DNA from: Hydrogenothermaceae bacterium
GTDB taxonomy: Bacteria; Aquificota; Aquificia; Aquificales; Hydrogenothermaceae
NCBI GenBank assembly: GCA_026418455.1
Contig: JAOABH010000004.1
Location: forward strand, 186,001 to 250,000
Direction of reading: 5' to 3'
DNA: 64,000 nt
Positions 970 to 37,026 of this stretch are shown here, piece after piece. Numbering within the stretch: position 1 is the stretch's first letter; every line of letters begins with the position of its first letter. Position numbers and translations under genes: made by a program. Below the pieces are notes generated by a model. That model saw only the letters and a program-made list of their open reading frames with translations, was not told the origin of the DNA and did no database searches.

Positions 970-982
970 TGAATATATCCTC

Positions 983-1209: not shown

Positions 1210-1220
1210 CTGGAGAGTAC

Positions 1221-1823
1221 CTACTTCTTTATAAGTTCTTCTACATCTTCTACAATTTTTTCAACTGGTAGATATATACCAAGCCACTCTTCAATCTGTT
1301 TTCCATCTTTATCTATTATTATAGTTCTAACCGGTGTATGAGTTATCATTTTATGTTTCATTTTATGGCCTCCATGATCCATTTCCATTATCTTCTCTTT
1401 AACTTCTATTCCGTAAGCATCCCAGACTTTCTTTAAATCTTTTGGATTACCTGTTAAAAATGCAAAATCATCAAGGTTTCTTGTGGTTTTATACTCTTTT
1501 AAAACTTCGGGACTGTCTTTTGGATCCACTGTTATAAAAACTATCTGGTATTTACCTTTATAACCCTTTTCATTTAGTTTTTCACTAACTTGTTTTAATG
1601 CTGCAGTTAGAGTAGGACATACATGCATACAGTTTGTAAATCCAAAGTAAAGTATGACCACCTTTCCTTTAAAGTCCCCTAACTTTGTAGGTTTTCCTTC
1701 TTCATTTACTAAGTTTTCAACTTCTACCACCGGTTTTGGAAATCCCTTTGTACTTCCCTGTAATGCAAAGGAACCTGAGAAGATAAAAAACGGCAAGATC
1801 AACATTAAAACTATCCTTTTCAT
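1221..1823 (-). CDS. Sco1/SenC family copper chaperone
   Basis: This 200-residue protein has an N-terminal signal or membrane anchor (residues ~1-21) and a thioredoxin-fold domain. The diagnostic CxxxCP motif is present (C65, C69), as is the distal copper ligand His in T-H-T (H162). Sco proteins deliver copper to the CuA site of cytochrome c oxidase or act as thiol-disulfide reductases facing the periplasm. An unusual His/Met-rich stretch (residues ~146-159, with H150, H153 and H157) precedes the distal His and could bind extra copper. The gene is alone on its strand, followed by a hairpin; no oxidase genes are adjacent. Confidence 0.9.
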   Translation of the reverse strand: MKRIVLMLILPFFIFSGSFALQGSTKGFPKPVVEVENLVNEEGKPTKLGDFKGKVVILYFGFTNCMHVCPTLTAALKQVSEKLNEKGYKGKYQIVFITVDPKDSPEVLKEYKTTRNLDDFAFLTGNPKDLKKVWDAYGIEVKEKIMEMDHGGHKMKHKMITHTPVRTIIIDKDGKQIEEWLGIYLPVEKIVEDVEELIKK

Positions 1824-1958
1824 CTTTTTACCTCCAATATTGGTTTATATCAATTTTAGTTTAAAGTAATGTTAAAATCAAGTAAAAATTTAACATAGAA
1901 AAACTGTCCTGTTTTGAAGTGTTAAAATATATTAAGTGAATTTTTGAAGAGGTAAAAG

Positions 1959-3746
1959 ATGGAAGATAGATTAAGTAAAATCAGGAACTTTTCTATAATA
2001 GCCCATGTTGACCATGGAAAATCTACTTTGGCAGATAGGTTGATAGAGTTTACTGGAGCCCTTGAAAAGAGAGAGATGAAAGACCAACTTCTTGACACTC
2101 TTGATATAGAAAGAGAAAGGGGAATAACTATAAAACTTCAAGCTGTGAGATTGAAATATAAGGACTACACTCTCCATCTTATAGATACACCGGGACACGT
2201 AGATTTTGGATATGAAGTTTCAAGATCCTTGGCTGCCTGCGAAGGTGCTTTACTACTTATAGATGCTACACAAGGTATTGAAGCTCAAACTATAGCAACA
2301 TTCTGGCAAGCTCTAAACCTTAACCTTGAAATTATACCTGTAATAAACAAGATAGATCTTCCTTCTGCAGATATTGACAGGATAAAGAGACAGATAGAGG
2401 AGGTTTTAGGACTTGACCCAGAAGGAGCTATACTGGCATCTGGAAAAGCTGGAATAGGAATAGAGGATATTCTTGAGGCTATAGTAAAGAGAATACCACC
2501 TCCGAAAGGAGATGAAAAAGCTCCACTGAAAGCCCTCATATTTGACTCTTACTACGACCCTTACAGAGGGGCTGTTGCTTTTGTTAGAATTGTTGACGGT
2601 GAAGTAAAAGTAGGGACAAAAATCAGACTTATGTCAACAGGAAAGGAGTTTGAAGTTACAGAAGTAGGAGCCCAAACTCCTAAAATGGAAAAATTAGAAT
2701 TTTTAAAAGCAGGAGATGTTGGTTATGTAGCAGCTGCCATAAAAGATGTAAGGGATATAAGGGTTGGAGATACAATTACAGATGCAAAGAGACCAGCAAA
2801 AGAGCCAATAGAGGGTTTTAGACCTGCAAAACCTATGGTATATGCTGGACTTTATCCTACTGGCTCTACAACCTTTGAAGACATGAGAGATGCTTTGGAA
2901 AGATACTCAATAAACGATGCAGCACTTACTTACGAAGTAGAATCTTCACCAGCTCTTGGAATGGGATTTAGATGTGGATTTTTGGGACTTTTACACCTTG
3001 AGATTGTACAGGAGAGATTAGAGAGGGAGTATAACATAGAGCTTATAACAACAGCTCCAAATGTTATATACAAAGTTATAACAACAAAGGGGGAAGAGAT
3101 AGAGATAAGAAATCCTTCTCAACTGCCAAATCCTACCCATATAGATAAAATTTTGGAGCCATACATAGAGGCAAGTATAATCACTCCAAGTGAGTATGTA
3201 GGTGCTATAATGCAACTTGTCCAGGATAAGAGAGGAATACAGAAAGGATTTGAATACTTAGACCAAAAAACAGTTTTACTTAGGTATGACATACCTCTTG
3301 GAGAAGTTCTCTTTGATTTCCATGATAAACTAAAAACTGCAACAAAAGGGTATGCTTCATTTGATTATGAGTTTATAGGTTATAGGGAAGGAGACCTTGT
3401 TAAGATGGATATCCTTATAAACGATGAGCCTGTCGATGCTCTTTCTTTTATAGTCCATAGGGATAAAGCTTACAGAGTTGGAAGAACCTTGGTTGATAAA
3501 ATGAAAGAAGTTATTCCAAGACAGCTTTTCGAAGTGAAGATACAGGCTACCATAGGCTCAAAGGTTATAGCATCTGCAAGAGTTGCACCTCTCAGAAGGG
3601 ATGTACTGGCAAAATGTTATGGTGGAGATATTACAAGGAAAAAGAAACTTTTAGAGAAACAAAAGGAAGGTAAAAAGAGAATGAAACAGTTTGGTAAAGT
3701 GGAACTTCCTCAAGAGGCATTTTTAAGTATACTTAAGGCTGATTAA
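1959..3746 (+). CDS. lepA: Elongation factor 4 (LepA) GTPase
   Basis: This is a full-length 595-residue LepA/EF4, a ribosome-binding GTPase related to EF-G that acts on stalled or mistranslocated ribosomes. Visible G motifs are AHVDHGKST (G1, near residue 15), DTPGH (G3) and NKID (G4). The C-terminus is the LepA-specific domain, basic at the end ([16 protein letters not shown] region) and closing with the conserved QEAFLSIL-type segment. The ATG at 1959 follows GAGGT. Upstream, TGTTAAAAT (around 1930) could be an extended -10 promoter. The stop is one base before birA, suggesting co-transcription. Confidence 0.97.
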
Positions 3747-3747
3747 G

Positions 3748-4698
3748 ATGATAGATAGTGTTGAGTTTGTAAAGTTATTGAAAGAGAGAAAATATTCCGG
3801 AGAAGAGTTAGCAAAGATATTTGGAGTGTCAAGGTCTGCTGTTTGGAAAAGGATAAATAAACTTAAAGAAGAAGGTTATGATATTGATGTTTCAAAAGAA
3901 GGTTACCATATAATCTCTTCTCCTGATAAACTCATACTGGAAGAAGTTAAACCATTACTGAAAACAAAATTTATAGGTTATAACTACATCTATTTTGATA
4001 AGATAGACTCTACAAATGAGTATCTAAAATCTGATGACTTTCCTGATGGTACAGTAGTAGTAGCGGAAACTCAAACGGCAGGTAAAGGTAGAAAAGGCAG
4101 AAAATGGATATCTCCTTATGGTAAAGGTCTTTACTTTTCTATCCTTCTTAAATCAAGATTAGAAGTTTATTATGTCTCTAAACTCAGTTTGGTTTTTCTT
4201 TGGTCTGTGTTTGAGACTTTAAAAAAGTACACTGCCAGTTGTGATTTAAAGATAAAGTGGCCTAATGATATATATCTAAATAACAAAAAATTAGCCGGCT
4301 TTTTGATAGATACATCTATAGAAAACAACGAAGTTGTAAAAGTAGTTGTAGGAGTGGGAATAAATATTAATAATGATGTTGAAGACTTTAACGATTTAGA
4401 TATTGCAACATCTCTTAAAATTGAATGTAATAAAACTTTTGATAGAAAAAAACTTTTAGCTGATATACTTTATCAGGTAGAAGAGAGTTATTATAAATTT
4501 TTGGATACAAAATTTTTCAATGTCAAAAACGTAGAAAAAAATCTCCTCTGGCTTGGAGAAACAGTAAAGATAGTTGAAAATGGAACTGTTATACTTGAGG
4601 GAATAATAGAAGGTTTAAACGATGATGGGTCTCTCATTTTAAAAGTGAAAGATAAAATAGAGCTTATTTATGTAGGAGAGCTCTCTGTCAGAGTTTAA
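3748..4698 (+). CDS. birA: Biotin-protein ligase / biotin repressor BirA
   Basis: This 316-residue protein has an N-terminal winged-helix DNA-binding domain (residues ~1-60, HTH_11 type) followed by the biotin-protein ligase catalytic domain with the GKGRKGRKW glycine-rich biotinyl-AMP loop and KWPNDIY motif, and a C-terminal SH3-like domain. It makes biotinyl-5'-AMP and attaches biotin to a lysine of carrier proteins such as AccB, encoded at 54.9 kb. The HTH suggests that it also represses biotin genes. It starts one base after the lepA stop, and its TAA overlaps the stop codon of convergent trpE. Confidence 0.95.
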   Translation: MIDSVEFVKLLKERKYSGEELAKIFGVSRSAVWKRINKLKEEGYDIDVSKEGYHIISSPDKLILEEVKPLLKTKFIGYNYIYFDKIDSTNEYLKSDDFPDGTVVVAETQTAGKGRKGRKWISPYGKGLYFSILLKSRLEVYYVSKLSLVFLWSVFETLKKYTASCDLKIKWPNDIYLNNKKLAGFLIDTSIENNEVVKVVVGVGININNDVEDFNDLDIATSLKIECNKTFDRKKLLADILYQVEESYYKFLDTKFFNVKNVEKNLLWLGETVKIVENGTVILEGIIEGLNDDGSLILKVKDKIELIYVGELSVRV

Positions 4699-23423: not shown

Positions 23424-23987
23424 ATGGAGTGTGTTATAAAAGGGACTACTATAAAGTTTATAGTGGGAGATATAACTGAAAGTGATACAGAGGCTATAGT
23501 AAATGCTGCCAACTCTTCTCTTATGGGTGGTGGAGGTGTTGATGGTGCTATTCACTCAAAAGGTGGTCCGGCTATACTTCAAGAGTGTAAAGAAATAAGA
23601 AAAACTCTATATCCAGAGGGACTGCCAACTGGTAATGCGGTGATAACAACAGCTGGAAAGTTAAAAGCTAAGTATGTAATTCATACCGTAGGTCCAATCT
23701 GTAATGGAAAGATGACGGATGAGGAGAAAAATCTCTTATACAGTGCATATAAAAACAGCTTAAAGTTAGCCAAAGAGGTGGGAGTAAAATCTATATCTTT
23801 TCCTTCTATAAGCACCGGAGCATATAGATGTAATATAGAAGAAGCCTCTGAGGTTGCTGTAAAATCAGTTATAGATTTTATAGATGAAGAGCAACATTTT
23901 GAGATTATTCAGTTTGTCCTCTTTACTCCAGAGATTTATAATATCTATACAAAAACTTTTAAGAATCTGGTAACTGAATGCAGATAG
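23424..23987 (+). CDS. Macro domain protein (ADP-ribose binding, YmdB-like)
   Basis: This 187-residue protein is a stand-alone macro domain. Visible motifs are the ADP-ribose-binding VGDITE (Asp contacting adenine), NAANSSLMGGGGVDGAIH (Asn and the Gly-rich catalytic loop) and SISTGAYR. Relatives hydrolyse O-acetyl-ADP-ribose or remove ADP-ribose from Asp/Glu and modulate RNase III. It follows pelB by 11 bases and overlaps the next gene by 10 bases, which could place it in the end of the Pel transcript, although no functional link is known. Confidence 0.93.
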   Translation: MECVIKGTTIKFIVGDITESDTEAIVNAANSSLMGGGGVDGAIHSKGGPAILQECKEIRKTLYPEGLPTGNAVITTAGKLKAKYVIHTVGPICNGKMTDEEKNLLYSAYKNSLKLAKEVGVKSISFPSISTGAYRCNIEEASEVAVKSVIDFIDEEQHFEIIQFVLFTPEIYNIYTKTFKNLVTECR

Positions 23988-24769
23988 ATGTAGTTGATAT
24001 AGTTATAATCACTGGAATTTTTATGGTTGTAGGTTATTATGCATTTTTACGGTATAAAGAAGAAAAGAGAAAAGAAGAGGCTTTACTTATCCCTACTTTA
24101 GAGTCCTATAAAGAGAAATTTTTAAAAGAAAAAGAAGATTACATTTTAAGAGCTAAATCTTACGAGGATAAATTAGAAGATATAAAAATCCAATTACAAG
24201 ATTTAAAAAGTAAAATAGCTCTGTATCCATGGACAGAATCTCAGATTGAGTATTTTAAGAAGATGAAAGGCTCAGAATTTGAGTATTTCCTAAATACCAC
24301 TTTCCAAATGCTTGGGTTTGAGATTATTGACCCGGAGTATTTCAAAGAGTTTCATATAGATACTATACTGAAGTTTGAAGATGAAGATAGGATTGACTAT
24401 ATAATAGTGGATTACGTAGATTTTACAGAAGTTAAGAAAATTGATGAAAACTATCTTAAGGATTTAGAAAAAGGTAAAGAAAAGTATTCTATATCAAAAG
24501 TCTGGATTATAACCAATGGGAAATTAGATGAATCTGTTGTTAAAAAGATTTATGATTATGACTTTAACTTACTTGATACTGAAAATATAGTAAAGCTTCT
24601 ACCATCTTTAAATTTTTTCTATGAATATGAAGATTTAAAAGCTAAGTTTCACGCTACACAGATACTCCATAAAGAGATGTTTGATGAAGTTATAAGAAGG
24701 GAACATTGGTTGGAAGAGGTAGATAAGAAATTATTTGAAGCTATTGAGAAGAGAAATAAATTATCTTAA
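23978..24769 (+). CDS. Membrane-anchored coiled-coil protein with Mrr-like domain
   Basis: The 263-residue protein has an N-terminal membrane helix (residues ~6-24), a long coiled coil (~25-85) and a domain (~85-200) that resembles the restriction-endonuclease-like Mrr_cat fold: MKGSEFEYFLNTTFQMLGF, then FHIDTILKF and a strand-rich region ending KVWIITNGKLD. The usual Mrr catalytic QxK is replaced around IIVDYVDFTEVKK, so the active site looks altered or lost. It may tether to the membrane and bind nucleic acid. Function unknown; fold assignment by eye only. Confidence 0.5.
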   Translation: MQIDVVDIVIITGIFMVVGYYAFLRYKEEKRKEEALLIPTLESYKEKFLKEKEDYILRAKSYEDKLEDIKIQLQDLKSKIALYPWTESQIEYFKKMKGSEFEYFLNTTFQMLGFEIIDPEYFKEFHIDTILKFEDEDRIDYIIVDYVDFTEVKKIDENYLKDLEKGKEKYSISKVWIITNGKLDESVVKKIYDYDFNLLDTENIVKLLPSLNFFYEYEDLKAKFHATQILHKEMFDEVIRREHWLEEVDKKLFEAIEKRNKLS

Positions 24770-24788
24770 AAGGAGTAAGAGGGTTAAG

Positions 24789-25586
24789 ATGATATCAGTG
24801 AGAAAACCGGCAGTAGCAAATTTATTCTATCCGGCAAAAATAGAAAAACTAAGAGATATGATAGAGTCCTATTTAGAAGAAGCTCACCTGTTTAATTACA
24901 AACCGGAAAGTTTAATATCTCCTCATGCAGGTTATATATACTCTGGAAAAACTGCTGCAGTATCCTATAAGCAACTTCTCAATTTAGAAAGAGGTAAACA
25001 TTACACATTTCTATTGATAGGACCATCTCACTATGTATATATGAATGGTATATCTTTTGGTTATTATGATTACTGGTTGACACCTCTTGGAGAGGTTAAA
25101 GTAAATAAAGAGAAAATATTACAGTTTGCGAAGGACTATCCTCATTATCCTATAACTTTAAATACCGTCCCTCATCAAAGAGAACATTCTTTAGAAGTTC
25201 AAGTCCCATTTTTACAGGTAGTTATGGAAGATTTTGATATAATTCCTGTAGTCTATGGAAATATAGATCCTCTATATATTAAAAGATTGATAGAGTATTT
25301 TAAAGACGAAAATACAGTTGTAATAGTGAGTTCTGATTTAAGTCATTACTATCCAGATAATGTTGCAAGACAACTTGATAAAAATTGTCATTTAGCGGTG
25401 GAAAAACTGGATACATCATACCTGGAAAAGTGTGAGGCCTGTGGTAAAATAGGAATTGAAGGTATGATATTGTATGCAAAAGATAATAACCTTAAAGGAA
25501 AACTTTTGGACTATAAAACTTCCGGTGATACTTCCGGAGATTACTCAGCGGTGGTTGGATATGGAAGTTATATCTTCTATAAGTAA
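24789..25586 (+). CDS. Memo family protein (AmmeMemoRadiSam system B)
   Basis: This 265-residue protein is a bacterial Memo homologue. The pattern SPHAGYIYSGKTAA, LIGPSHYVYMNGIS, then QREHSLEVQVPFLQ and SSDLSHYYP holds the His and Asp residues of the metal-dioxygenase-like (LigB) fold. The GIEGMILYA and SGDYSAVVGYGSY ends also fit. Known human Memo1 binds metal and lacks clear catalysis. I prefer the ATG at 24789 over 24735, because the upstream residues overlap the preceding gene and the Memo core starts ISVRKPAVA. It overlaps the AMMECR1 gene by 26 bases. Confidence 0.9.
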   Translation: MISVRKPAVANLFYPAKIEKLRDMIESYLEEAHLFNYKPESLISPHAGYIYSGKTAAVSYKQLLNLERGKHYTFLLIGPSHYVYMNGISFGYYDYWLTPLGEVKVNKEKILQFAKDYPHYPITLNTVPHQREHSLEVQVPFLQVVMEDFDIIPVVYGNIDPLYIKRLIEYFKDENTVVIVSSDLSHYYPDNVARQLDKNCHLAVEKLDTSYLEKCEACGKIGIEGMILYAKDNNLKGKLLDYKTSGDTSGDYSAVVGYGSYIFYK

Positions 25587-26142
25587 AGAGGAAGGTCAAT
25601 TTCTCTTAAAACTTGCCAGATTTTCTATAGAGTATTATCTAAAAACTGGTAAAATTCCTCTTATCAACCAAGAAGATATCCCTTATGAGAATCTTAAAAA
25701 GTTAGGTGCATCATTTGTTACACTTGAAACAAAACAGGGAAGCCTACGAGGATGTATAGGGTCTATTATACCTCACAGACCACTGTATGAAGATGTTATA
25801 CATAATGCAATATCATCAGCCGTATCTGACCCCAGATTTTATCCTCTATCTTTAGATGAGCTTACTAATATAAAAATTAAAGTATCTGTTCTCACTTATC
25901 CCCAACCTTTACATTATGATAACTGGATAGATTTATTTAACAAAATAGAACCTTTCAAAGATGGTGTTATTATAAAGTATGGAAATCATTCAGCAACTTT
26001 TCTACCTGATGTGTGGGAGGATCTTCCTGAAAAAGATAAATTTTTTGCTCATCTATGTTTGAAAGCAGGACTACCAGCAGATTGTTATAAAAAATATAGA
26101 TTGGAAGTCTTTACTTACAAAACTATATCTTTTAGTGAGTAA
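25561..26142 (+). CDS. AMMECR1 domain protein (AmmeMemoRadiSam system A)
   Basis: The 193-residue product carries the AMMECR1 domain: FVTLETKQGSLRGCIGSI with the RGCIG motif, SAVSDPRFYPLS and IKYGNHSATFLPDVW. The family is of unknown function but co-occurs in prokaryotes with Memo and a radical SAM protein; here both neighbours are present. The start at ATG 25561 gives the normal N-terminus MEVISSISKEEGQFLLKLA; a longer frame from 25474 is unlikely. Its stop abuts the convergent stop of the radical SAM gene with no gap. Confidence 0.9.
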   Translation: MEVISSISKEEGQFLLKLARFSIEYYLKTGKIPLINQEDIPYENLKKLGASFVTLETKQGSLRGCIGSIIPHRPLYEDVIHNAISSAVSDPRFYPLSLDELTNIKIKVSVLTYPQPLHYDNWIDLFNKIEPFKDGVIIKYGNHSATFLPDVWEDLPEKDKFFAHLCLKAGLPADCYKKYRLEVFTYKTISFSE

Positions 26143-27165
26143 TTACTTCCAAACTCCAGCTATCTCTGTATTACACTTTGGACATTTCCCATCAATAAGA
26201 TGGTTTTTAACATACTGTCCTACATATCCACTTCTCTCAATTACTTTAAAATGGCAATTTGGACAGTAAGTAGATTCTCTATCTTCATCAATAATGTTTC
26301 CAACATATATATATTTAAGTCCTTCCTCTTTACCTATCTCATAAGCTTCCTTTAACTTCTCTATGGGTGTAGGTGGTTTGTCTAACATTTTATACATTGG
26401 GAAAAATCTTGATATATGCCAAGGTATATTTTTATCTATAGAAGCTATAAATTTAGCTATATCTCTAAGTTCTTCTTTTGAGTCATTTTCACCTGGTATT
26501 ATGAGAGTTGTTATCTCTATCCATATACCTTGCTTATAAGAATACTCTATAGCTTCCAAAACTGGCTTTAACCTTGCACCACATATTTCTCTATAAAATC
26601 TGTCAGTAAATGCTTTTAAATCTATATTAGCGGCATCAAGGTAAGGTTTTATTGTGTCTATTGCATCTTTTGTTTCATAACCACTACTTACAAAAACTGT
26701 TTTTATACCATGTTGTTTTGCCAATTTAAATGTATCATAAGCATATTCAAAAACAACAACAGGTTCGTTATAAGTAAATGCAATTGAAGGTATTTTTCTG
26801 GTTTTTGCTATATTTACTATTGTTTCTGGGAGTAAAGTTGTTCCAAAAACTTCGAAGTTATGTTCTTGTGGATACTGTGATATATCAAAATTTTGGCAAA
26901 ACTGACAGCTAAAATTACAACCAACTGTTCCAACTGAAAATATCTCTGTTCCGGGTAAAAAATGAAAAAGTGGTTTTTTCTCAATTGGGTCAATATTATA
27001 AGCAGCAGCAAGTCCATAGACAGTTAGATATAAATCTCCATTTTCATTTTTCCTTATTCCACATTTTCCATACTCACCTTCTGCTAATACACATCTCTGA
27101 GAACAAGCCTTACACAAAACTTTATTATCCTTTCTCTTCTCAGATAACCAAGCTAATGCTTTCAA
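26143..27165 (-). CDS. Radical SAM protein of the AmmeMemoRadiSam system
   Basis: The 340-residue protein has the radical SAM cluster CNFSCQFC near residue 84, preceded by N-terminal zinc-like Cys pairs (CKACSQRC and CGIRKNE) and followed by C-terminal pairs (CPNC and CPKC). It resembles pyruvate formate-lyase activating enzymes but belongs to the AmrS group. It is convergent with Memo and AMMECR1, its expected partners. The start is read as TTG at 27165; an ATG at ~27172 is out of frame. Reaction unknown; a SAM-dependent radical modification is inferred from the cluster. Confidence 0.9.
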   Translation of the reverse strand: MKALAWLSEKRKDNKVLCKACSQRCVLAEGEYGKCGIRKNENGDLYLTVYGLAAAYNIDPIEKKPLFHFLPGTEIFSVGTVGCNFSCQFCQNFDISQYPQEHNFEVFGTTLLPETIVNIAKTRKIPSIAFTYNEPVVVFEYAYDTFKLAKQHGIKTVFVSSGYETKDAIDTIKPYLDAANIDLKAFTDRFYREICGARLKPVLEAIEYSYKQGIWIEITTLIIPGENDSKEELRDIAKFIASIDKNIPWHISRFFPMYKMLDKPPTPIEKLKEAYEIGKEEGLKYIYVGNIIDEDRESTYCPNCHFKVIERSGYVGQYVKNHLIDGKCPKCNTEIAGVWK

Positions 27166-27238: not shown

Positions 27239-28591
27239 CTAACATCTTCCAAACCTCTCAACATACTTTTTTATATCAAACTTTCTCTCTAAACCTTTAT
27301 CATTCATATATCTAACTTTTCCGAAAACTTTTCTCTCTTGCCAAGGTCTATCGTGAGTTCCAAAACACCAAGATATTCCAGCATAACCATTTGGATCTCT
27401 TCCATCAAGCTCATATTTGTCATTTAGATAACATGCAATATCAAAAGCTTCCTTAGGATGTTTTGTCCATTCTATCAATTTCTTTGCCCAATACATTCTC
27501 ATATAGTTATGCATTTTACCTGTTTTTAATAGCTCTCTCTGAGCGGCGTTCCAGTATTGGTCATGAGTTTTTCCTTCTTCCAACTCGGAAATAGAATATA
27601 TATACTCTCTCTTATCTTTAATGTGTTCCTCTAAGGTCTGTTTTGCCCATTGAGGTATGCCATTGTATTGGTTATATAAAGGATTATAGAAACAGAAATT
27701 CCTGGCAAGCTCTCTCCAAACTATCAACTCATTGAAAAAAGATTTAACATTTTCATCATATATATGATATTCTTTTAATATATCCTTGACTATCTTCACT
27801 GGAGATATCTGTCCAAAGTGTATATATGGACTTAAATTTGATTGATAGTCAACAGTAGGGTCTGACCTTAAATCTTTGTATCTATGTAGCTTTTCTTCTA
27901 TAAAAATTTTTAATAACTTTTGTGCTTCATCATATCCACCTATGAAATTTTCTGATGGTTTTACAGACTTATCTATGTTGAGTTGGTTTATATAATCATC
28001 TACACTATCTAAATCCCAACTTTGAATATCAAAATTTTCTGATTTAATCTTTGGAGGAGTTATCTGTATAGAAGTAATAAATCTGTCCATCATACCGTAT
28101 ATTTTAGGTCTTATCGTCATGGCATAAGGTTCTTGTTTGTTAGAAACTAATCTAACTGGGACAATAACATCAGACTCTATCTCAAAAACAGCAACATCTG
28201 AAATTTTTCCAATATACTCACGCCACATTCTTTGGGTTTTTAGATAATTTGTATCTGTTATTACAACAGAAGCATTTTTTAAAAACTTTTTACAGCCTTC
28301 AGTATAACTATTTTTATTTATAACAAACTTTATTCCCAGTTTTTTGAAATCTTCTCTTAACTTTAAAATTCCTTCTATCATAAATTTATAGTATCTTATG
28401 TTTGAGTGTTTATAGTTATCAGTTATGTTAAAAACAGTTATCAATGGCTTTTTAATCTTGTCAGCTAATTTTACGGCAAAATATAATGCATAGTTGTAAT
28501 CTATTCTTTGGGAGCTTTCCATACAGTAAAGGATATATTTTTTGGTTGTGTCTATCTCTTTTGAGTTTATTTTAAAAACTCTCTCTTCCAT
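27239..28591 (-). CDS. Class II CPD photolyase
   Basis: This 450-residue flavoprotein uses blue light to split cyclobutane pyrimidine dimers. The class II signature is clear near the C-terminus: HDQYWNAAQRELL, RMYWAKK, DPNGYAGISWCFGTHDRPW and VFGKVRYMN. The N-terminal alpha/beta domain carries the antenna site. Class II is found in plants, archaea, some bacteria and viruses, so it differs from the class I enzyme of E. coli. The ATG follows GGAGGTAGT. It is divergent from the operon starting near 28681, which includes a DUF1722 (YbgA-like) protein often found beside photolyases. Confidence 0.95.
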   Translation of the reverse strand: MEERVFKINSKEIDTTKKYILYCMESSQRIDYNYALYFAVKLADKIKKPLITVFNITDNYKHSNIRYYKFMIEGILKLREDFKKLGIKFVINKNSYTEGCKKFLKNASVVITDTNYLKTQRMWREYIGKISDVAVFEIESDVIVPVRLVSNKQEPYAMTIRPKIYGMMDRFITSIQITPPKIKSENFDIQSWDLDSVDDYINQLNIDKSVKPSENFIGGYDEAQKLLKIFIEEKLHRYKDLRSDPTVDYQSNLSPYIHFGQISPVKIVKDILKEYHIYDENVKSFFNELIVWRELARNFCFYNPLYNQYNGIPQWAKQTLEEHIKDKREYIYSISELEEGKTHDQYWNAAQRELLKTGKMHNYMRMYWAKKLIEWTKHPKEAFDIACYLNDKYELDGRDPNGYAGISWCFGTHDRPWQERKVFGKVRYMNDKGLERKFDIKKYVERFGRC

Positions 28592-28680
28592 ACTACCTCC
28601 TTGGTTTTTATCAATTCTAACAGATTAAAAGAAGAAGAAAAATACAAATTATAAATAAAATTACAAAAACCATACATAAA

Positions 28681-28842
28681 ATGAATAAAACACTCTTTTT
28701 TAAACTCTATAACCTAACTAAACTTATATTAAATCAAAACAGGAGGTATGAAATTTATGATAAATTTGTTCTATACATATCACCTATTTTAATTGTGGCT
28801 GGTATTTTGATTTTATATTTTGCAGTTTTTAAAATAGTATAG
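28681..28842 (+). CDS. Possible small membrane protein (53 aa) or frame-disrupted ORF
   Basis: An ORF of 54 codons from ATG 28681 encodes a single strong membrane helix in its second half (ISPILIVAGILILYFAVF) and ends at the TAG at 28842, just before the response regulator. The expected ribosome site is weak for this start. A strong AGGAGG (28741-28746) lies inside the ORF, but the ATGs after it (28748, 28757) are in another frame that stops after 11-14 codons. A one-base error or shift near 28757-28780 would join that start to the membrane helix. I am unsure which is real. Confidence 0.35.
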   Translation: MNKTLFFKLYNLTKLILNQNRRYEIYDKFVLYISPILIVAGILILYFAVFKIV

Positions 28843-28855
28843 AGAGGTGTGTGTT

Positions 28856-29593
28856 ATGAAAGCTTTTGTTTTGGAAGATGAGTGTCTATCAAGAGAGAGA
28901 TTGAAAAGAATACTTGGCAATCTTAATGTAAAGGTTGAGGGAGAGGCGGAAAACAAACAGGAAGCATTGGAGAAATTAAAATTTATAAATCCGGATGTTG
29001 TGTTTTTAGATGTTAAACTCCCAGATGGGACAGGAATTGAAGTAGCATCTTACATAATATCAAACTTTGAAAATCCACCCTATATAGTTTTTGTCACAGC
29101 TTACGGAGAGTATGCTTTAGAAGCTTTTAAGGTAAATTCAATAGATTATGTTTTAAAACCATATAAAGAAGAGGATATAAAAAGAGTTTTAGAAAAAATT
29201 AATAATTTTGAAAATAAAAAAGTTGCTATTACTAATATGTTACCCCTTGTATCAAAAAGTGAAGATATATTTATACCAGTTAAGTATCTAAATAAATATA
29301 TCCTTTTAAAACCATCAGATATTTATTATATAAAAGCTGAGCTTTCAGAAACGGTTATCAGAACAAAGGATCATGAGTATCTGTCTAACAAAAGACTTTA
29401 CGAATTTGAACAACTTCTATCAAATAAAGGTTTCTTCCGTACCCATAAAAGCTTTATAGTCAATCTATCAAAAATAAAAGAGATGAAGGTTGTTGAACAG
29501 AGTAAATTTTTAATATCTTTTGATGGAATTCCTGATACAATAAAGACAAGTAGAGACGGGGCAAAGTTTTTAAGGGAGTTTTTAGATGTATAA
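28856..29593 (+). CDS. LytTR-family response regulator (LytR/AlgR-like)
   Basis: The 245-residue protein has an N-terminal receiver domain with DVVFLDVKLPDGTG (phosphoacceptor Asp near residue 50), TAYGEYALEAFKV and KPYKEEDI, and a C-terminal LytTR DNA-binding domain (residues ~140-245) with FIPVKYLN, RTHKSFIVNLSKI. LytTR regulators bind upstream repeats. The start is ATG 28856, which has AGAGG upstream, rather than GTG at 28847. Its probable partner is the LytS-type kinase at 32380, four genes on in the same run. Confidence 0.93.
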   Translation: MKAFVLEDECLSRERLKRILGNLNVKVEGEAENKQEALEKLKFINPDVVFLDVKLPDGTGIEVASYIISNFENPPYIVFVTAYGEYALEAFKVNSIDYVLKPYKEEDIKRVLEKINNFENKKVAITNMLPLVSKSEDIFIPVKYLNKYILLKPSDIYYIKAELSETVIRTKDHEYLSNKRLYEFEQLLSNKGFFRTHKSFIVNLSKIKEMKVVEQSKFLISFDGIPDTIKTSRDGAKFLREFLDV

Positions 29594-30512
29594 ACCAAGA
29601 GTTGTTATCAGTAGATGTATAAATATAGCACCTGTTAGATATAACGGTGGAATTGTAACAGATGATTTTGCTAAAAAGTTGGGGCAGTTTGTTGAATATA
29701 TCGATATATGTCCGGAAGTTGATATAGGTATGTCTGTCCCACGTCCTTCTGTAATACTTGCAAAGTATCCTGAGAAGATAAGAATGATAGAGCCAATCTC
29801 TAAGACTGATTACACGGAAAAAATTGAAGATTACTCTAAGAAGATGATGGAATCTTTCAAAAATATAGATGGCTTTCTGTTAAAATCAAAATCTCCAAGT
29901 TGTGGTGTTGGAGATACAAAACTTTATAAAGATGATTTAGTTCATTCCGTAGGAAAAACAGATGGTATATTTGCAAGGTTTGCCAAAACACACTTTCCCT
30001 ATCTTCCGGTAGAAGATGAAGGAAGAGTCCATGATATTTGGATAAAAAGGGATTTTTTAACTAAGATATTTACATTTGCCAATGCTAGAAACACTCTTTC
30101 AAATATTGAATCTATAAATCAACTTATAAAATTTCACCAAAATAACAAGTATTTATTAATGCTATATTCTCCGTCTAAACAAAAGAAACTTGGTCAGATA
30201 ATAGCAAACTGGGATAAAGTGGGTTTAAATGAAACGGTAAAAATTTACAGAGAGCTGTTTTATCAAACATTTTTAAAAAGACCGGGATTAAAGTCCCATA
30301 TAAATGTCTTACAGCACATATACGGACATTTTTCTGACCTTTTAAAATCTTCTGAAAAAAGACATATACATAATCTTTTAAACAAAGCTTTAGATGGAAA
30401 AGTTGATATTAAAACAGTTATTGAGTATATAAAAGGCTTTGTATTTAGATTTGATGATGAATATCTCAAAAGCCAAACATATCTATCTCCTTATCCGGAG
30501 GAACTTGATTAA
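29586..30512 (+). CDS. DUF523-DUF1722 protein (YbgA-like fusion)
   Basis: This 308-residue fusion has an N-terminal DUF523 domain with conserved SRC and the SPSCGVG Cys motif near residue 104, and a C-terminal DUF1722 (YbgA) domain from residue ~180 with KYLLMLYSPSKQKKLGQI and HINVLQHIYGHF. In E. coli ybgA is next to phrB, and DUF1722 proteins recur near photolyases; here the class II photolyase is close. The function is unknown; thiolation, thiouracil removal and DNA-related roles have been suggested for the DUF523 fold. It overlaps the response regulator by 8 bases. Confidence 0.88.
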   Translation: MYKPRVVISRCINIAPVRYNGGIVTDDFAKKLGQFVEYIDICPEVDIGMSVPRPSVILAKYPEKIRMIEPISKTDYTEKIEDYSKKMMESFKNIDGFLLKSKSPSCGVGDTKLYKDDLVHSVGKTDGIFARFAKTHFPYLPVEDEGRVHDIWIKRDFLTKIFTFANARNTLSNIESINQLIKFHQNNKYLLMLYSPSKQKKLGQIIANWDKVGLNETVKIYRELFYQTFLKRPGLKSHINVLQHIYGHFSDLLKSSEKRHIHNLLNKALDGKVDIKTVIEYIKGFVFRFDDEYLKSQTYLSPYPEELD

Positions 30513-30546
30513 CCACAGGTTTATAAACTTAAAAAACAGATTTATG

Positions 30547-30566
30547 AAACAGATTTTACTCTGTTT
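30547..30566 (+). terminator. Possible weak terminator in operon gap
   Basis: AAACAGA and TCTGTTT form a 7-bp stem with a 6-base loop, followed by ATTGATTTTTATTT. It lies in the 108-base gap between the DUF523-DUF1722 gene and the next ORF. The low-GC stem suggests weak or partial termination, which would tune the downstream genes in the same direction. Confidence 0.35.
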
Positions 30567-30622
30567 ATTGATTTTTATTTAAGCTTTATCTTTTATTTTA
30601 AATAAACTCCGGAGTATCTGTG

Positions 30623-30922
30623 ATGAAAACATTAAATACCGGTGTGATTGTTTTCAAAAATATAAGAGAAGGTTTTTGTTTTGAAGGGTTGGGATACTTA
30701 GATACACAACTAACTTTTATTTCACAAGGAGAGTATATTTTGGAGATAAAGTATTATTATGAAGATGAAGAAAAAGTTTTAACACTTAAAGGCAAAAATA
30801 TATCGAGGGTTGTTTTAAATATGGATAGATTTGTTATCACAAAAGTTAGAAGTGATAACCAAATAAAACTTGTAGTCAATAACATAAAAGATTACTTTTT
30901 TGATTTACTTTCAGAAAACTAA
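30623..30922 (+). CDS. Hypothetical protein (99 aa)
   Basis: The protein has about 99 residues with no family recognised. It is predicted to be mostly beta strand (alternating hydrophobic residues in ITFISQGEYILEIKYYY), with a charged middle and an acidic end. There is no signal peptide or membrane helix. The ATG at 30623 follows CCGGAG by eight bases, better than the GTG at 30620. It precedes the FAD enzyme by 10 bases and is transcribed with it. It resembles a small PilZ-like or PASTA-sized beta-domain only in length; this is not a claim of homology. Confidence 0.6.
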   Translation: MKTLNTGVIVFKNIREGFCFEGLGYLDTQLTFISQGEYILEIKYYYEDEEKVLTLKGKNISRVVLNMDRFVITKVRSDNQIKLVVNNIKDYFFDLLSEN

Positions 30923-30932
30923 AGGAGATCTG

Positions 30933-32408
30933 ATGTTAGATTATGTCATAGTTGGTGGTGGGATAGGTGGCGTTGTAGCTTTTTCTTTACTTAAAAAACT
31001 TGGTAAAAATACTTTGCTGTTTGAAAAACTTAACTATCTTGGAGGTTGTGCCGGAACATTTCAGAAAGATAATAACTTTTATAATGTGGGAGCTACTACT
31101 CTTGTAGGATTAGAAGGAAATCTTCCATTAGCTGTTTTGATGAGAATTTTAGGTAAAGACAATATTCCTGTTAAAAAATCAGACCCTTCTATAAAGGTTT
31201 ATATAAAAGATAAAGTTATAAATAGATATAAGGATAAAGAGAGAGCTTTAGAAGAGATAAATAAAAATTTTTATAATCCACAGAATAAGAGACTTTGGCA
31301 AGAGATATACAAAACAGCAGATAAAAACTGGAGTAATCTTTATAACTTTATTCCCTATACTGGTCTAAACTTAAAAACTTTTTCAACTTATCTAAAAAAA
31401 TTTCCACATATATTATCAACTTTAAAGTATGTAACATCTACAGCAAAAGATGTTATACATAAAATATCAGGAGATTTATCTGAAGATTATATAAAATTTC
31501 TAAATTCTCAAATACTTATGACTGCACAAGGTTATTACGATGAGGTAAGTTTCTCTGTTGCAACAATGGGACTCACTTATCCTAACCTTGACAACTACTA
31601 TGTTATTGGTGGAATGGGAAGAATGTTTGATTTTCTAACTGAAAGTTTAGATGGGATACATCTAAGGGAAAAAGTTTTAAAAGTTAAAAAGGTCGGTGAT
31701 TTTTTTGAGGTGAAAACAAATAAAAACTCATATCTATCAAAAAGGGTTATACTAAATTCAACCATCTGGAATTTTTGTGATATTTTGGAAGGTTTTGATA
31801 ATGTATGTTACTCATTTCGTAAAAAGTATAAAAAGATGTGGGGATCTTTAACTTTATACTTTACAGTAAATGATCCAGATAACTTGTTAAATGACCATCA
31901 TTATCAGATTTTACACGATAAAAATCCATATACCGGTAGCTATTCCTTTTTTGTGTCTGTTTCAGACAAAGATGATACTGTAATCTCAAAAACTGGTTAT
32001 AAGACTGTAACAGTATCAACTCACTGTGAGATAGATTTATGGAAAAATATTGATGATTATATTTATAAAGAGAGAAAGGAAAAAGCAAAAGAGTTTATTT
32101 TAGAAAATCTTTACAGACATATACCATACTTTAAGATGTTAGAGAAAAGTGATATATTTGTGGGAACTCCGAAAACATTTGAGAGATATACAGGAAGATT
32201 CAGAGGTTCTGTTGGAGGTGTTCCGTTGTTAAAAAAATACTTTTCCTTTTTTTATCCAAAAACATTTACACCTATTGAGAATCTCTATATTGTGGGGGAT
32301 ACTGTTTTCCCTGGACAAGGTTGGCCTGGGGTAGTTTTAGGTGTTTTTAACCTTTTAATTTGCATAGAAGAGGATTTTAATGAGTTACTATATAAACATA
32401 TCAAATAA
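30933..32408 (+). CDS. FAD-dependent oxidoreductase, CrtI/CrtISO-like
   Basis: The 491-residue flavoprotein begins with a dinucleotide fold VIVGGGIGGVVAF, then FEKLNYLGGCAGTF, and ends with the second FAD signature (NLYIVGDTVFPGQGWPGV). This is the pattern of phytoene desaturases and carotenoid isomerases (CrtI/CrtISO/RetSat). It may act on carotenoids or another polyene or lipid. ATG 30933 follows AAAGGAG. Its context, between light-repair genes and a LytS/LytR pair, fits photoprotection, but no other crt gene is visible, so substrate is unproven. Confidence 0.75.
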   Translation: MLDYVIVGGGIGGVVAFSLLKKLGKNTLLFEKLNYLGGCAGTFQKDNNFYNVGATTLVGLEGNLPLAVLMRILGKDNIPVKKSDPSIKVYIKDKVINRYKDKERALEEINKNFYNPQNKRLWQEIYKTADKNWSNLYNFIPYTGLNLKTFSTYLKKFPHILSTLKYVTSTAKDVIHKISGDLSEDYIKFLNSQILMTAQGYYDEVSFSVATMGLTYPNLDNYYVIGGMGRMFDFLTESLDGIHLREKVLKVKKVGDFFEVKTNKNSYLSKRVILNSTIWNFCDILEGFDNVCYSFRKKYKKMWGSLTLYFTVNDPDNLLNDHHYQILHDKNPYTGSYSFFVSVSDKDDTVISKTGYKTVTVSTHCEIDLWKNIDDYIYKERKEKAKEFILENLYRHIPYFKMLEKSDIFVGTPKTFERYTGRFRGSVGGVPLLKKYFSFFYPKTFTPIENLYIVGDTVFPGQGWPGVVLGVFNLLICIEEDFNELLYKHIK

Positions 32409-33390
32409 AGACTGGTTTTTGGTTTTCTCTTTCGGATTAGTTTTTGGTGGTTTTTTAGGAGTATTTATATCTTTACTATCCGGATTAACAAGCTCTTTAA
32501 TAGATGGTTTTTTAACAGGAGTTTTATTCGGCTTTTTTATATTCACTTTCTCTTACCTGCTTATAAATTTTTCTAACAGTTATTTACTTAAAATTTTACC
32601 TGAAAAAATCTGGATTCCCTTTAGTCTTTTTGTTTCGTTTATTGCCGGAATAATCGGCTCTCTTTTATCTTATACTGTTATCAAGTATCTAAACTTAATA
32701 GATTTAAATCTATCCTACAGCACTGTTATAACAGGATCCCTAATTGTAGGTTCTTTAACGGCACTTATAGGTTACCTTCTATACAAGATAGTTTCGTTGA
32801 GAAAAAAAGAATCTGACCTCGAAAAATCTATTATAGAAACGAAGCTAAAAGCTTTGGAATATCAGATAAACCCCCATTATCTCTTTAACTCCTTAAATGT
32901 TATAGCTGAGCTTATCCATATAGATAAAGAAAAAGCAGAAGAAGCATTGATTAAACTCTCTAAATTTTTGAGAGATATAATAGAGGAAGATAGTTGGATA
33001 ACTTTAGAGAAAGAAATTGAGATAGTGAAAAACTTTCTATTTATACAGACTATGAGATTCCCAGGTATATCTATTCATATGGATATAGACAAAAAAACTC
33101 TACATTACCTTGTACCAAAGTTATCACTACAGATATTAGTAGAGAATGCCATAAAACATGGAGTGAAATCAAAAGGTAATATATGGATAAATGTAAGGAA
33201 AAGTAATAACTCTCTGGTTGTGGAAGTTATAGATGATGGCAGAGATTTTAATGGTATAAAAGAAGGAATTGGATTGAGAAATCTCAAAAATAGACTTTCT
33301 ATTTTTGGTGGTAACCTGTCTTATTTTAGAGATGATGAAAAAACTATTTTTATCTTTAATATACCAATAAATATAGGGAATATGATATAA
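32380..33390 (+). CDS. LytS-type histidine kinase (His_kinase family)
   Basis: The 336-residue sensor kinase has four N-terminal membrane helices (residues ~12-35, 40-62, 72-98, 108-135), a short linker, and the LytS/YpdA kinase core: ALEYQINPHYLFNSLN with the phosphoacceptor His at about residue 168, then ILVENAIKHGV (N box) and GIGLRNLKNRL (G box). It lacks an extra sensor domain, so the membrane region must sense the signal. It overlaps the FAD gene by 29 bases and should phosphorylate the LytTR regulator at 28856. The operon ends in a strong terminator. Confidence 0.92.
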   Translation: MSYYINISNKDWFLVFSFGLVFGGFLGVFISLLSGLTSSLIDGFLTGVLFGFFIFTFSYLLINFSNSYLLKILPEKIWIPFSLFVSFIAGIIGSLLSYTVIKYLNLIDLNLSYSTVITGSLIVGSLTALIGYLLYKIVSLRKKESDLEKSIIETKLKALEYQINPHYLFNSLNVIAELIHIDKEKAEEALIKLSKFLRDIIEEDSWITLEKEIEIVKNFLFIQTMRFPGISIHMDIDKKTLHYLVPKLSLQILVENAIKHGVKSKGNIWINVRKSNNSLVVEVIDDGRDFNGIKEGIGLRNLKNRLSIFGGNLSYFRDDEKTIFIFNIPINIGNMI

Positions 33391-34844: not shown

Positions 34845-35057
34845 ATGTTTTTTGAGATAGACAAAAACACTTACATATTGGTTGAAAACATAGCGGCTGT
34901 GTCATTACATGAGGAAAATGGTAGATTTTACTGGTTGTTCTATACAAATCATCCAAGTCCTATAAAGTCTATGTATTTTGAAACAAAGGAAGAGGCTATA
35001 GTTTGGTTTAGAAATTTGAAATACGATTTTTACAGGAAGAAAAATGAAAACGAATGA
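34845..35057 (+). CDS. Hypothetical protein (70 aa)
   Basis: A short 70-residue protein with no membrane helix, rich in aromatic residues (YWLFYTNHPSP, FRNLKYDFYRKK). Its strand pattern FEIDKNTYILVENIAAVSL resembles small sensor-like beta domains; no family is recognised. Its end overlaps the start of the GGDEF-EAL gene by 14 bases, indicating translational coupling. Likely accessory to that c-di-GMP protein, by position. Confidence 0.6.
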   Translation: MFFEIDKNTYILVENIAAVSLHEENGRFYWLFYTNHPSPIKSMYFETKEEAIVWFRNLKYDFYRKKNENE

Positions 35058-37026
35058 AAAACAGTTTACACATTTAGATTTAGACCTCGTTTGTAAAATT
35101 ATAGATAGATCTCCGGATATTATTTTTACGATAAATGTAGATGGAATAATACAGTATGTTAATGAATCTTTCTGTGAGATATTAGGATATTCTAAGGATG
35201 AGGTTATAGGAAAAAATATAAGGGAAATATCTATAGAAGAGTCAATTTATAATGCCTGTATGATTTCTGTGAAAGAAACTGGGAAATGTTTAGATCAAGA
35301 AACTCATTTTCGTCGAAAAGATGGGGAAATTATTCACGTAGTCAAAAATGTAAATGCTCTATACGATGAAAATGGAAATATATCATCAATAATTGTAAAT
35401 GCCAGAGATTTAACCCATATAGATAATCTTAATAAAGAGCTTTTTGAAGCTAAAGAAAAACTTGAAAGTAGATTAAGTATTATAGAGGAAGTTTTCCTAA
35501 ATATAAATGAAGCTGTAGCTATTATAGATAAAAATGGCTTTTATATAGAGCAAAACAAAGCTCATGAAAAATTACTTGGCTACTCACAAGAAGAGATTAA
35601 GGGTAAAACTCCGTTAATACATATGAAAAAATCAGACTTTGATAAAATTATAAAAGAAGTCTTAGAAAAAGGTTCATTTACTGGAGAGGTATCTGTTAAA
35701 ACAAAATCTGGAGATATAAAAGATATAGAGTTAATCGTAATTCCGATAAGAGATAGAACTGGAGAAATAGCTTACTTTATAGGTATAAAAAAAGATATGA
35801 CAGAGAAGAAAGAAAGACTTTATATAGATTATTTAACAGGACTTCCAAATAGATTTAAGTTAACTATTGACCTTGATAGAGTTTTCAATCCTAAAGTAAT
35901 TCTCATAAATATAGATTCTTTTAAAGAGATAAATGATGTTTATGGTTTTAGTATTGGAGATAAAATTCTGATAAGTGTAGCCAATAGAATTAAAAATTAC
36001 ACTCAAAAACATAACTTTCAGCTTTACAGAATAGGTGGAGATGAATTCGCAATTATTATAGATAGATTTATATCCTCCTCTAGTTTAGATATCTTTGTTA
36101 ACGGTTTAATTGCTTATATACAATCCAAACCTTTTGATATTGAGGGATATGAGATAAATATAGATGTGACTCTCGGTATAGCTATACCTACTGAATTTAA
36201 TGCAAGGAATATACTTGAAAAAGCTGATATGGCTTTAAAGTATGCAAAGGAAAATAGGAAATCTTTCTTTATTTACACTGAAAATCTTGAGTTGCAAAAA
36301 AAATACGAGGAAAATCTAAAATGGGTAAAAATCCTTAAAAATGCAATAAAGCAAAATAGGATAGCGTTATTCTATCAACCTATATTTAATAACAACACAG
36401 GAAAGATAGAAAAGTTTGAAGCACTTGTAAGAATAAAAGAGGGAGAAAAATTTATATCACCATTTTATTTCTTAGATATAGCAAAAAAAGCAAAACTATA
36501 TCCTCATATAACGTTGGAAGTAGTAAAACAGGCATTCCAGACTTCGAGAGATTACAATGTAGAGGTATCTATAAATTTATCTATAAAAGATATATTGAAT
36601 GATGTAGTTGTTCTTGAAATATTTAACCAGCTTAAAAATAATAGTGCTAACATAACCTTTGAACTTTTAGAGTCAGAGGGTATTCAAAACTTTGATGAAG
36701 TTCTTGAATTTATAAAGCAGGTAAAAACCTACGGAGCTAAAATCGCAATAGATGATTTTGGTAGTGGTTATTCTAACTTTGAATATCTGTTAAAATTGAA
36801 AGTGGATTATCTTAAAATAGATTCGTCTTTAATCAAGAATGTACATACAGATAAAGAATCAAGAATTATAGTAGAAACTATAACAGATTTTTCTAAAAAA
36901 CTTGATATAAAAACAATCGCAGAGTTTGTCCATTGTGAGGAAGTTTTTAAAGTAGTTAAAGAAATCGGAATAGATTACTCTCAAGGTTTTTATCTTGGGG
37001 AGCCAAAACCAGAGATAACTATTTAA
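35044..37026 (+). CDS. PAS-PAS-GGDEF-EAL c-di-GMP protein
   Basis: The 660-residue protein has two PAS domains (residues ~15-125 and ~145-255), a GGDEF domain with YRIGGDEFA (~335) and an EAL domain (~425-655). EAL motif FEALVRI, NLS, DDFGSGYSN, KID and QGFYLGEPKP are kept, so phosphodiesterase activity is likely. The GGDEF motif is intact and no inhibitory RxxD was found directly upstream of it. It could make or degrade c-di-GMP in response to the PAS signals. It is the only such enzyme in the window and may feed PelD. Confidence 0.93.
   Translation: MKTNEKQFTHLDLDLVCKIIDRSPDIIFTINVDGIIQYVNESFCEILGYSKDEVIGKNIREISIEESIYNACMISVKETGKCLDQETHFRRKDGEIIHVVKNVNALYDENGNISSIIVNARDLTHIDNLNKELFEAKEKLESRLSIIEEVFLNINEAVAIIDKNGFYIEQNKAHEKLLGYSQEEIKGKTPLIHMKKSDFDKIIKEVLEKGSFTGEVSVKTKSGDIKDIELIVIPIRDRTGEIAYFIGIKKDMTEKKERLYIDYLTGLPNRFKLTIDLDRVFNPKVILINIDSFKEINDVYGFSIGDKILISVANRIKNYTQKHNFQLYRIGGDEFAIIIDRFISSSSLDIFVNGLIAYIQSKPFDIEGYEINIDVTLGIAIPTEFNARNILEKADMALKYAKENRKSFFIYTENLELQKKYEENLKWVKILKNAIKQNRIALFYQPIFNNNTGKIEKFEALVRIKEGEKFISPFYFLDIAKKAKLYPHITLEVVKQAFQTSRDYNVEVSINLSIKDILNDVVVLEIFNQLKNNSANITFELLESEGIQNFDEVLEFIKQVKTYGAKIAIDDFGSGYSNFEYLLKLKVDYLKIDSSLIKNVHTDKESRIIVETITDFSKKLDIKTIAEFVHCEEVFKVVKEIGIDYSQGFYLGEPKPEITI

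Follow-up and report, generated by a model that had tools for sequence, protein, structure and literature searches.

The stretch of DNA considered here, hereafter the window, comprises 64,000 nucleotides (positions 186,001 to 250,000 of contig JAOABH010000004.1) of a Hydrogenothermaceae bacterium of the phylum Aquificota, whose genome (G000) totals 1.535 Mb in 8 contigs. Between positions 27239 and 33390 it carries a class II photolyase gene, divergent from five genes which encode a LytTR response regulator, a predicted tRNA desulfidase (RudS), a 99-aa protein, a flavin adenine dinucleotide (FAD)-type oxidoreductase and a LytS-type sensor kinase. On balance, this locus appears to be a self-regulated, LytS/LytTR-controlled cassette of the Aquificota that responds to near-ultraviolet (near-UV) or light damage. 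When compared across the phylum, the six genes form a conserved unit which decays together and which survives rearrangement.

All six genes named in a first-pass annotation of this DNA, including a photolyase divergent from a LytTR operon, are indeed present in the order and on the strands it gave, as judged from the positions of the open reading frames (ORFs) and from Pfam and NCBIfam profile matches. The five plus-strand genes overlap or are separated by at most 10 bp, with the exception of a 110-bp gap preceding the 99-aa gene, and the FAD enzyme and LytS genes overlap by 29 bp. Within the gap between photolyase and LytTR (28592-28855; 0.26 kb) lie a direct repeat of the LytTR type and a HemJ-like gene of which only the C-terminal part is left. 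A search of the leader for sigma-70-type promoters returned one match against 2.1 expected by chance, and a megablast search against plasmids returned none. The features are:

27239-28591, minus strand: class II cyclobutane pyrimidine dimer (CPD) photolyase, 450 aa (TIGR00591, PF00875, 8oet/2xry)
28657-28690, plus strand: predicted LytTR operator 1, half-sites AAATTACAA (28658-28666) and AAATGAATA (28679-28687) with a 12-bp spacer, between the photolyase and the LytTR operon
28732-28842, plus strand: HemJ-like membrane protein gene remnant, C-terminal ~35 codons only, 50% identity to residues 109-144 of the protein of locus L014
28856-29593, plus strand: LytTR response regulator, receiver with Asp52 and LytTR DNA-binding domain (PF00072, 71.1 bits; PF04397, 81.8 bits)
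29586-30512, plus strand: RudS, a TudS (DUF523) domain fused to DUF1722, predicted tRNA 4-thiouridine desulfidase (PF04463, 112.8 bits; PF08349, 115.3 bits)
30525-30558, plus strand: candidate LytTR operator 2, before the 99-aa, FAD enzyme and LytS genes
30623-30922, plus strand: 99-aa protein, conserved in the class II-type cassettes of the family, predicted all-beta (AlphaFold2 pLDDT 79.5)
30933-32408 (best start), plus strand: CrtD/CrtISO-like FAD oxidoreductase, 491 aa (TIGR02733, 4rep)
32380-33390, plus strand: LytS-type sensor histidine kinase, four N-terminal helices followed by the kinase (PF06580, 84.8 bits; PF02518, 29.3 bits)

The distribution of these genes was surveyed in 136 genomes of the phylum, 41 of them belonging to the family. 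Within the family, photolyase and FAD enzyme each occur in ten genomes, nine of which are common to both; the unshared cases are a photolyase fragment in G038 and a distant FAD-enzyme homologue (28% identity) in G031. The latter, a CrtI-like protein (L022:9366-10760), stands in another context, and no photolyase match was found in G031. Across the phylum, strong FAD-enzyme matches (E<1e-80) were obtained in 28 genomes, photolyase (PF00875) in 30, LytTR over its cut-off in 27, and strong matches (E<1e-17) to TM35, a membrane peptide of 34-38 aa encoded in relatives of the cassette, in 24. These counts exclude FAD-enzyme matches above E 1e-80, mostly short and N-terminal (60 of the 88 genomes with a match at E 1e-3), five TM35 matches above E 1e-3, and two LytTR matches below the cut-off (G016 and G114). 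LytTR and photolyase occur together in 26 genomes, LytTR alone in one (a 69%-complete genome), photolyase alone in four and neither in 105, while the corresponding figures for FAD enzyme and LytTR are 25 with both, three with the FAD enzyme only, two with LytTR only and 106 with neither. For both tables Fisher's test gives p < 1e-21, a value that ignores shared ancestry; the genus-level LytTR/photolyase table (6/1/2/21) gives p=3e-4. Furthermore, LytTR and photolyase lie no more than 10 kb apart on one contig in 23 of the 26 genomes that have both, and on separate contigs in G039, G084 and G092.

Membership persists through considerable rearrangement. The same-genus comparison genome (G014, locus L014) and loci L016 and L017 have a photolyase set apart from a run of TM35, HemJ-like, LytTR, RudS, 99-aa, FAD enzyme and LytS genes; in L015, RudS and HemJ-like genes stand on the photolyase side, and in Sulfurihydrogenibium yellowstonense-type loci a cytochrome pair is inserted in the cassette. 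A contig of the cultured strain S. yellowstonense SS-5 carries part of it. The typical order in genus g16 (family f2) is FAD enzyme, LytS, TM35, flavin-reductase-like protein, ~83-aa membrane protein, HemJ-like protein and photolyase, with LytTR convergent beside them. The FAD enzyme is directly 5' of LytS in 25 of 28 loci, the three exceptions being Hydrogenobaculum-type genomes that have the FAD enzyme alone. Where the cassette is lost, it is lost or damaged at several genes: G038 lacks it between flanks that match G033 and retains only the C-terminal half of the photolyase; G086 has its photolyase broken up into two frames and a partial LytTR match, with no match for FAD enzyme, LytS or TM35; and G077 has an in-frame stop in LytTR, a short LytS and no TM35 match, its photolyase frame being intact. 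In the midpoint-rooted FAD-enzyme and LytTR trees, the Thermocrinis-type genomes G093-G095 group with the S. yellowstonense-type genomes G035, G037 and G039 on starred branches, and G066 groups with G034 in the FAD-enzyme tree only. Since both trees cross two families, the cassette has probably moved between families of the Aquificota.

The photolyase itself is not of one kind. The window protein shows full-length similarity to class II enzymes: it scores 525.3 bits (E 1.8e-157) against TIGR00591 (phr2), just below the cut-off of 550.05, and 50 bits against PF00875, and its residues 20-448 match the solved photolyases 8oet and 2xry (E ~1e-107). The photolyases of the Hydrogenothermaceae and Thermocrinis-type loci are class II by similarity to the window protein, and that of G066 is class II with 482.8 bits to phr2. 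In contrast, the photolyase of G076 (g16) is class I (308.7 bits to TIGR03556 and only 26.1 to phr2), and the remaining g16 photolyases score like it with PF00875 (82-98 bits, against 45-57 in class II carriers). The occurrence of class I and class II photolyases in one kind of cassette argues for a functional association rather than mere inheritance.

The second repair-related protein can be named with the help of published work. Excerpts of a study of these proteins (PMC11417400) identify TudS fused to DUF1722 as RudS, a tRNA 4-thiouridine desulfidase whose gene often lies in light-responsive operons with photolyases and, in Pseudomonas, is under the control of the B12-dependent LitR. The association of DUF1722 with photolyases, noted in the first-pass annotation, is thus already in print, together with a function. 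The window RudS retains C11, C42-P-E44 and S105-C106, which correspond to the Cys17/Cys49/Cys114, Glu51 and Ser113 layout given in the same excerpts.

The regulatory pair comprises a PF06580 kinase with its conserved histidine and ATPase residues, and a regulator that joins a receiver to a LytTR domain. The latter domain is the single LytTR match in the whole genome; the gene starts at ATG 28856, with GTG 28847 as an alternative, and for Asp52, assigned by position, we assume the role usual in receiver domains. Among named regulator models, the protein scores best against BtsR (136.3 bits; cut-off 246) and LytR (129.3 bits; cut-off 375). In LytS, H166, N256, D285 and G287 are invariant in alignments of 11 and 8 sequences, and the kinase is complete. 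Its kinase part is nearest to GanS and DesK, the latter being a sensor of membrane state. Four transmembrane helices are predicted at the N-terminus and a structure model was made; this region has no Pfam match up to E 0.1, and no input domain is recognised. A fold search was dominated by kinase domains and hence barely probed the N-terminal part.

The first-pass annotation had proposed looking for LytTR-type direct repeats before the photolyase and FAD enzyme genes. Such repeats lie at 28657 and 30525, the latter being the weaker. An expectation-maximisation (EM) motif search covered 26 leader regions, of which 19 are LytTR/TM35 leaders, with the near-duplicate loci L019, L021, L065, L075, L076 and L081 left out. 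The motif is in register in 18 of the 19 LytTR/TM35 leaders (all but L015), with an objective of 502 against 301-325 in six shuffles. The search used 350 seeds for the real set but 150 for the shuffles; because the loci are related, no clean p value attaches to the difference. Within the motif of the 18 loci, recurrence of a 9-mer peaks at a lag of 21 bp (z 6.1, the highest of 39 lags, followed by 4.2 at 15), and the second copy lies mostly outside the discovered motif, with seven of its nine positions. This 9-12-9 bp layout agrees with the 12-bp separation of direct repeats that excerpts of PMC6193735 give as usual for the LytTR family.

When each group was left out of training in turn, the leader site ranked first in its locus in 12 of 18 loci and between 2 and 21 in the others; the Sulfurihydrogenibium loci formed two groups according to cassette type, so that the training set of one group contained the other. 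In the window, site 28657 ranks first of 127,934 positions (64 kb, both strands), scoring 22.7 (next 14.5) when its own genus is excluded from training and 23.4 (next 13.9) with a model from all 17 other sites. Over 20 model settings (four training sets by five column sets) it ranks first in 13 and between 1 and 4 in 17. Site 30525 was first noticed by eye and scored afterwards. A 34-column model from seven class II-type sites of other genera places 28657 and 30525 first and second of the 127,934 positions (18.7 and 13.8; next 13.5). Over the 20 settings, site 30525 ranks 1-2 in 11, 15-28 in four and 129-4331 in five trained on g16 alone; with the full 17-site model it ranks 17 on all columns and 2 on the half-site columns. 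In relatives, the rank of the matching leader within its locus is 2 in L018, L074, L075 and L076, 4 in L017 and 10-101 in L014, L016 and L019-L021; in g16 its score is low.

The FAD enzyme is the member for which the first-pass annotation must be revised. It had suggested that a two-component system may control DNA repair and photoprotection; the link to repair is supported by co-occurrence, joint decay, the two photolyase classes and the repeats, while carotenoid photoprotection, as stated, has to be rejected. Phytoene/squalene synthase (PF00494) was found in none of the 136 Aquificota genomes, that of the window included, and in seven of 14 control genomes, which makes a role for the enzyme in the usual carotenoid pathway unlikely. 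The enzyme scores 194.7 bits against CrtD (TIGR02733; cut-off 549.7) and 131.3 against CrtISO (cut-off 586.9), so that neither curated family score is reached, and its nearest solved structure by profile is the gamma-carotene desaturase 4rep (positions 1-473, E 5e-17). In G035 the gene is broken into two overlapping frames (L021:8888-10350), and LytS and the rest of that cassette look intact. In the Hydrogenobaculum-type loci L059, L060 and L061 the FAD enzyme stands alone at one site; L090 (G073) has the same neighbours without the FAD enzyme.

Three small proteins accompany the cassette. The 99-aa protein matches nothing in Pfam or NCBIfam up to E 0.1, and a fold search with it returned no specific match among numerous unrelated chains of beta-sandwich or jelly-roll fold (best Z 8.3). 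The HemJ-like protein of relatives, of ~143 aa, reaches 36.2 bits against UPF0093/HemJ (PF03653) in L014 (cut-off 34.2) and falls below the cut-off in four others tested, while DUF2269 is over its cut-off in two of five. In the window, a 53-aa ORF (28681-28842) covers the HemJ-like remnant if an upstream ATG is used; it was rejected as a new small gene, since it is the tail of the gene that is intact in L014. TM35 has 16 invariant positions in nine sequences (LPE..RF...GWW.VH..GI..V.Y.G), and that of L014 has no Pfam match; binding of heme or porphyrin by its invariant histidine would be a guess. The window LytTR, LytS, FAD enzyme, RudS and photolyase are intact in spite of the loss of TM35 and of most of the HemJ-like gene, so that both are dispensable here, which counts against either being an essential sensor.

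Taken together, we propose the following scheme, in which a near-UV or light-damage stimulus, binding by LytTR and co-regulation of the photolyase in the window arrangement are what we infer from sequence. The membrane kinase LytS, judged by family and intact residues, would phosphorylate the only LytTR regulator of the genome, which would then bind 9-12-9 bp direct repeats, one in the gap between photolyase and regulator and probably a second before the 99-aa, FAD enzyme and LytS genes. Binding would autoregulate the cassette and, in the window arrangement, could also drive the photolyase. As outputs, the photolyase is expected from its family to reverse cyclobutane dimers, and RudS to strip 4-thiouridine from tRNA so that near-UV light can not crosslink tRNA and stall translation. 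The FAD enzyme may act on another polyene, an isoprenoid or a lipid, or may serve the adjacent sensor, as no phytoene/squalene synthase was found in the phylum. The signal might be an oxidant generated by light or the state of porphyrin or heme in the membrane, a guess prompted by the HemJ-like protein and the histidine-bearing single-helix peptide which relatives add. The genera that carry the cassette probably live in sunlit springs.

Several observations weigh against this scheme. No photoreceptor or sensor domain was recognised in the cassette, and TM35 was not matched in the window genome, where the HemJ-like remnant is all that is left of that pair. No recognisable operator was found in the LytTR leaders of L015 and L073, and all four FAD-enzyme leaders tested in g16 gave low scores on their own strand; in one of these, L066, the LytTR site sits in the shared divergent gap. 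Photolyase leaders that are not shared with LytTR (L019, L020, L021, L074 and L076) have no clear site (ranks 39-91), for which reason we extend direct control of the photolyase to the window arrangement only. A degenerate 20-base pattern is not specific genome-wide, with 37 matches against 36 reversed controls in 12 genomes, and the attempt to define a regulon from it was dropped. RudS is also wider than the cassette, with strong matches in 38 genomes, 13 of them without LytTR (DUF1722 matches at 24.7 bits in both G004 and G012, and a sub-cut-off one in G041, were left out of the counts), and in g16 it is encoded away from the cassette. Finally, canonical ThiI was not recognised in the window genome, which makes 4-thiouridine only a putative product of this genome and a putative substrate of its RudS.

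This last point requires some care, as the ThiI Pfam domain PF02568 is over its cut-off in 132 of the 136 genomes, that of the window included. Taking these matches for canonical ThiI was rejected, because the two proteins checked are PP-loop/NFACT-R_2 proteins: that of the window genome, of 346 aa, scores 48 bits against ThiI (TIGR00342; cut-off 264.5), and that of G076, of 348 aa, is alike and far under the ThiI cut-off. A weaker PF02568 match in G066 reads like GMP synthase from its translation. The PP-loop/NFACT-R_2 genes (L091:1019-2059 and L092:228-1274) are the ThiI-like genes of the phylum, as far as these two checked proteins go, and such a protein might supply the lacking 4-thiouridine synthase, or have another role. 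For comparison, excerpts of PMC11417400 place ThiI in 94% of DUF1722-encoding species.

The kinase might alternatively sense membrane, heme or respiratory/redox state, with photolyase and RudS being just one part of a broader response to oxic conditions or oxidative stress, a reading that we hold to be possible, albeit doubtful. It would accommodate the HemJ/DUF2269-like, flavin-reductase-like and globin-like genes and the cytochrome pair found in or beside the cassettes of relatives, the place of DesK among the solved kinases nearest to LytS by sequence, and the presence of the FAD enzyme without LytS/LytTR in three Hydrogenobaculum-type genomes. However, the most constant partner is the photolyase, which works only with light and is represented in the same cassette by two classes, and RudS answers near-UV damage in other bacteria too, as excerpts of PMC11417400 report. 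The patchy set of carriers (28 of 136 genomes) and the transfer across two families suggested by the trees would also fit passive co-inheritance, whereby unrelated genes travel from one Aquificota family to another as a mobile block and decay as one. We think this unlikely, as the genes stay together in spite of strong differences in their order from genus to genus, the photolyases are of different classes, and similar operators precede genes in different arrangements.

A further alternative is that the FAD enzyme and LytS themselves form the light sensor, the flavoprotein reporting light or flavin redox state to the kinase, with help, in relatives, from a peptide that binds heme and from the HemJ-like protein. 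The position of LytS directly 3' of the FAD enzyme in most loci, the 29-bp overlap in the window, the invariant GWW.VH motif in TM35 and the lack of any carotenoid pathway that the enzyme could serve are all in its favour, but the Hydrogenobaculum-type genomes have the enzyme without LytS, and heme binding by the peptide is itself a guess. Moreover, we know of no sensor built from a carotenoid-desaturase-like flavoprotein and a kinase. We therefore rate the pair as an improbable sensor; it would be a long shot that such a flavoprotein provides the light or photo-oxidation input of LytS and represents a new kind of bacterial light sensor driving repair of DNA and tRNA photodamage. The damage-response cassette under LytS/LytTR control is the reading that we retain.

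Other genes were observed in or near these loci. Directly beside the window photolyase, 24735-27165 holds two kinds of ORF that read as Memo-like and AMMECR1-like, judged by translation alone, and a radical SAM gene of the AmmeMemoRadiSam type (TIGR04337, 377.8 bits); the adjoining ORF at 23424-23987 reads as macro-domain-like from its translation. Two genes 3' of LytS, 35044-37026 encodes a cyclic di-GMP protein with PAS-PAS-GGDEF-EAL architecture. Among the compared loci, a homologue of the radical SAM gene occurs only near the separate photolyase of G092 (L084), and a PAS-PAS-GGDEF-EAL homologue lies beside it. The pair inserted in S. yellowstonense-type cassettes (L020:13107-15853, L021:5458-8216 and L029:1-2526) lies between the RudS and 99-aa genes and encodes membrane proteins of ~455 aa, one of which has a CBB3-type cytochrome c domain. 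Recurrent neighbours of the cassette (L020:9057-10001, L027:12421-13365 and L063:11607-12254) are a flavin-reductase-like protein, with PF01613 in that of L020, and, at part of the loci, a short ORF that reads as globin-like from its translation.

Chemolithotrophs of hot-spring outflows are, to our knowledge, not usually thought of as light-responsive. That they carry a conserved cassette, apparently transferable and equipped with a kinase, a regulator and operators of its own, suggests that such organisms sense photodamage, and the cassette provides a defined test bed in which DNA photorepair and a remover of tRNA 4-thiouridine would stand behind one switch. It also raises the questions as to what a carotenoid-desaturase-like enzyme does without phytoene synthase, and what RudS acts upon without canonical ThiI. 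Literature searches on photolyases with LytTR/LytS, DUF523 or LitR, and on photolyases and carotenoids in Aquificales/Aquificae, found no paper describing the cassette, judged by titles and the starts of abstracts, and the excerpts of PMC2628731, PMC5459899 and PMC11417400 do not describe it.

Parts of the cassette nevertheless resemble known systems. The FAD enzyme is similar to CrtD/CrtISO (4rep) over its full length, ~470 residues, yet lies far under the family cut-offs. The BtsS/BtsR and LytS/LytR systems share with it a PF06580 sensor and a receiver-LytTR regulator, but the window proteins are far below the regulator cut-offs, the N-terminus of the kinase is unmatched, and the gene partners are different. 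LytTR Regulatory Systems (LRS), which combine a LytTR regulator with a membrane inhibitor, have 12-bp-spaced direct repeats in the operon leader (excerpts of PMC6193735), as does the cassette, and small membrane proteins are encoded beside the regulator in relatives of the cassette; the receiver domain of the window regulator and the adjacent LytS kinase argue against membership of this group. With the RudS desulfidases the window protein shares both domains and the Cys/Glu/Ser layout, differing in that the best ThiI-like protein of its own genome is not canonical. The closest parallel is offered by the light-inducible phrB-rudS operons of Pseudomonas, which are controlled by LitR, a MerR-type, adenosyl-B12-dependent regulator, and in which, as in the window, photolyase and RudS stand beside a dedicated regulator (excerpts of PMC11417400). 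The ten window proteins that were scanned gave no match to a MerR or B12-binding domain, a search that did not extend to the remainder of the genome. In place of LitR the window cassette has a LytS/LytTR two-component system, and it adds the FAD enzyme and the 99-aa protein; it is best read as a new variant of the photolyase-RudS operons.

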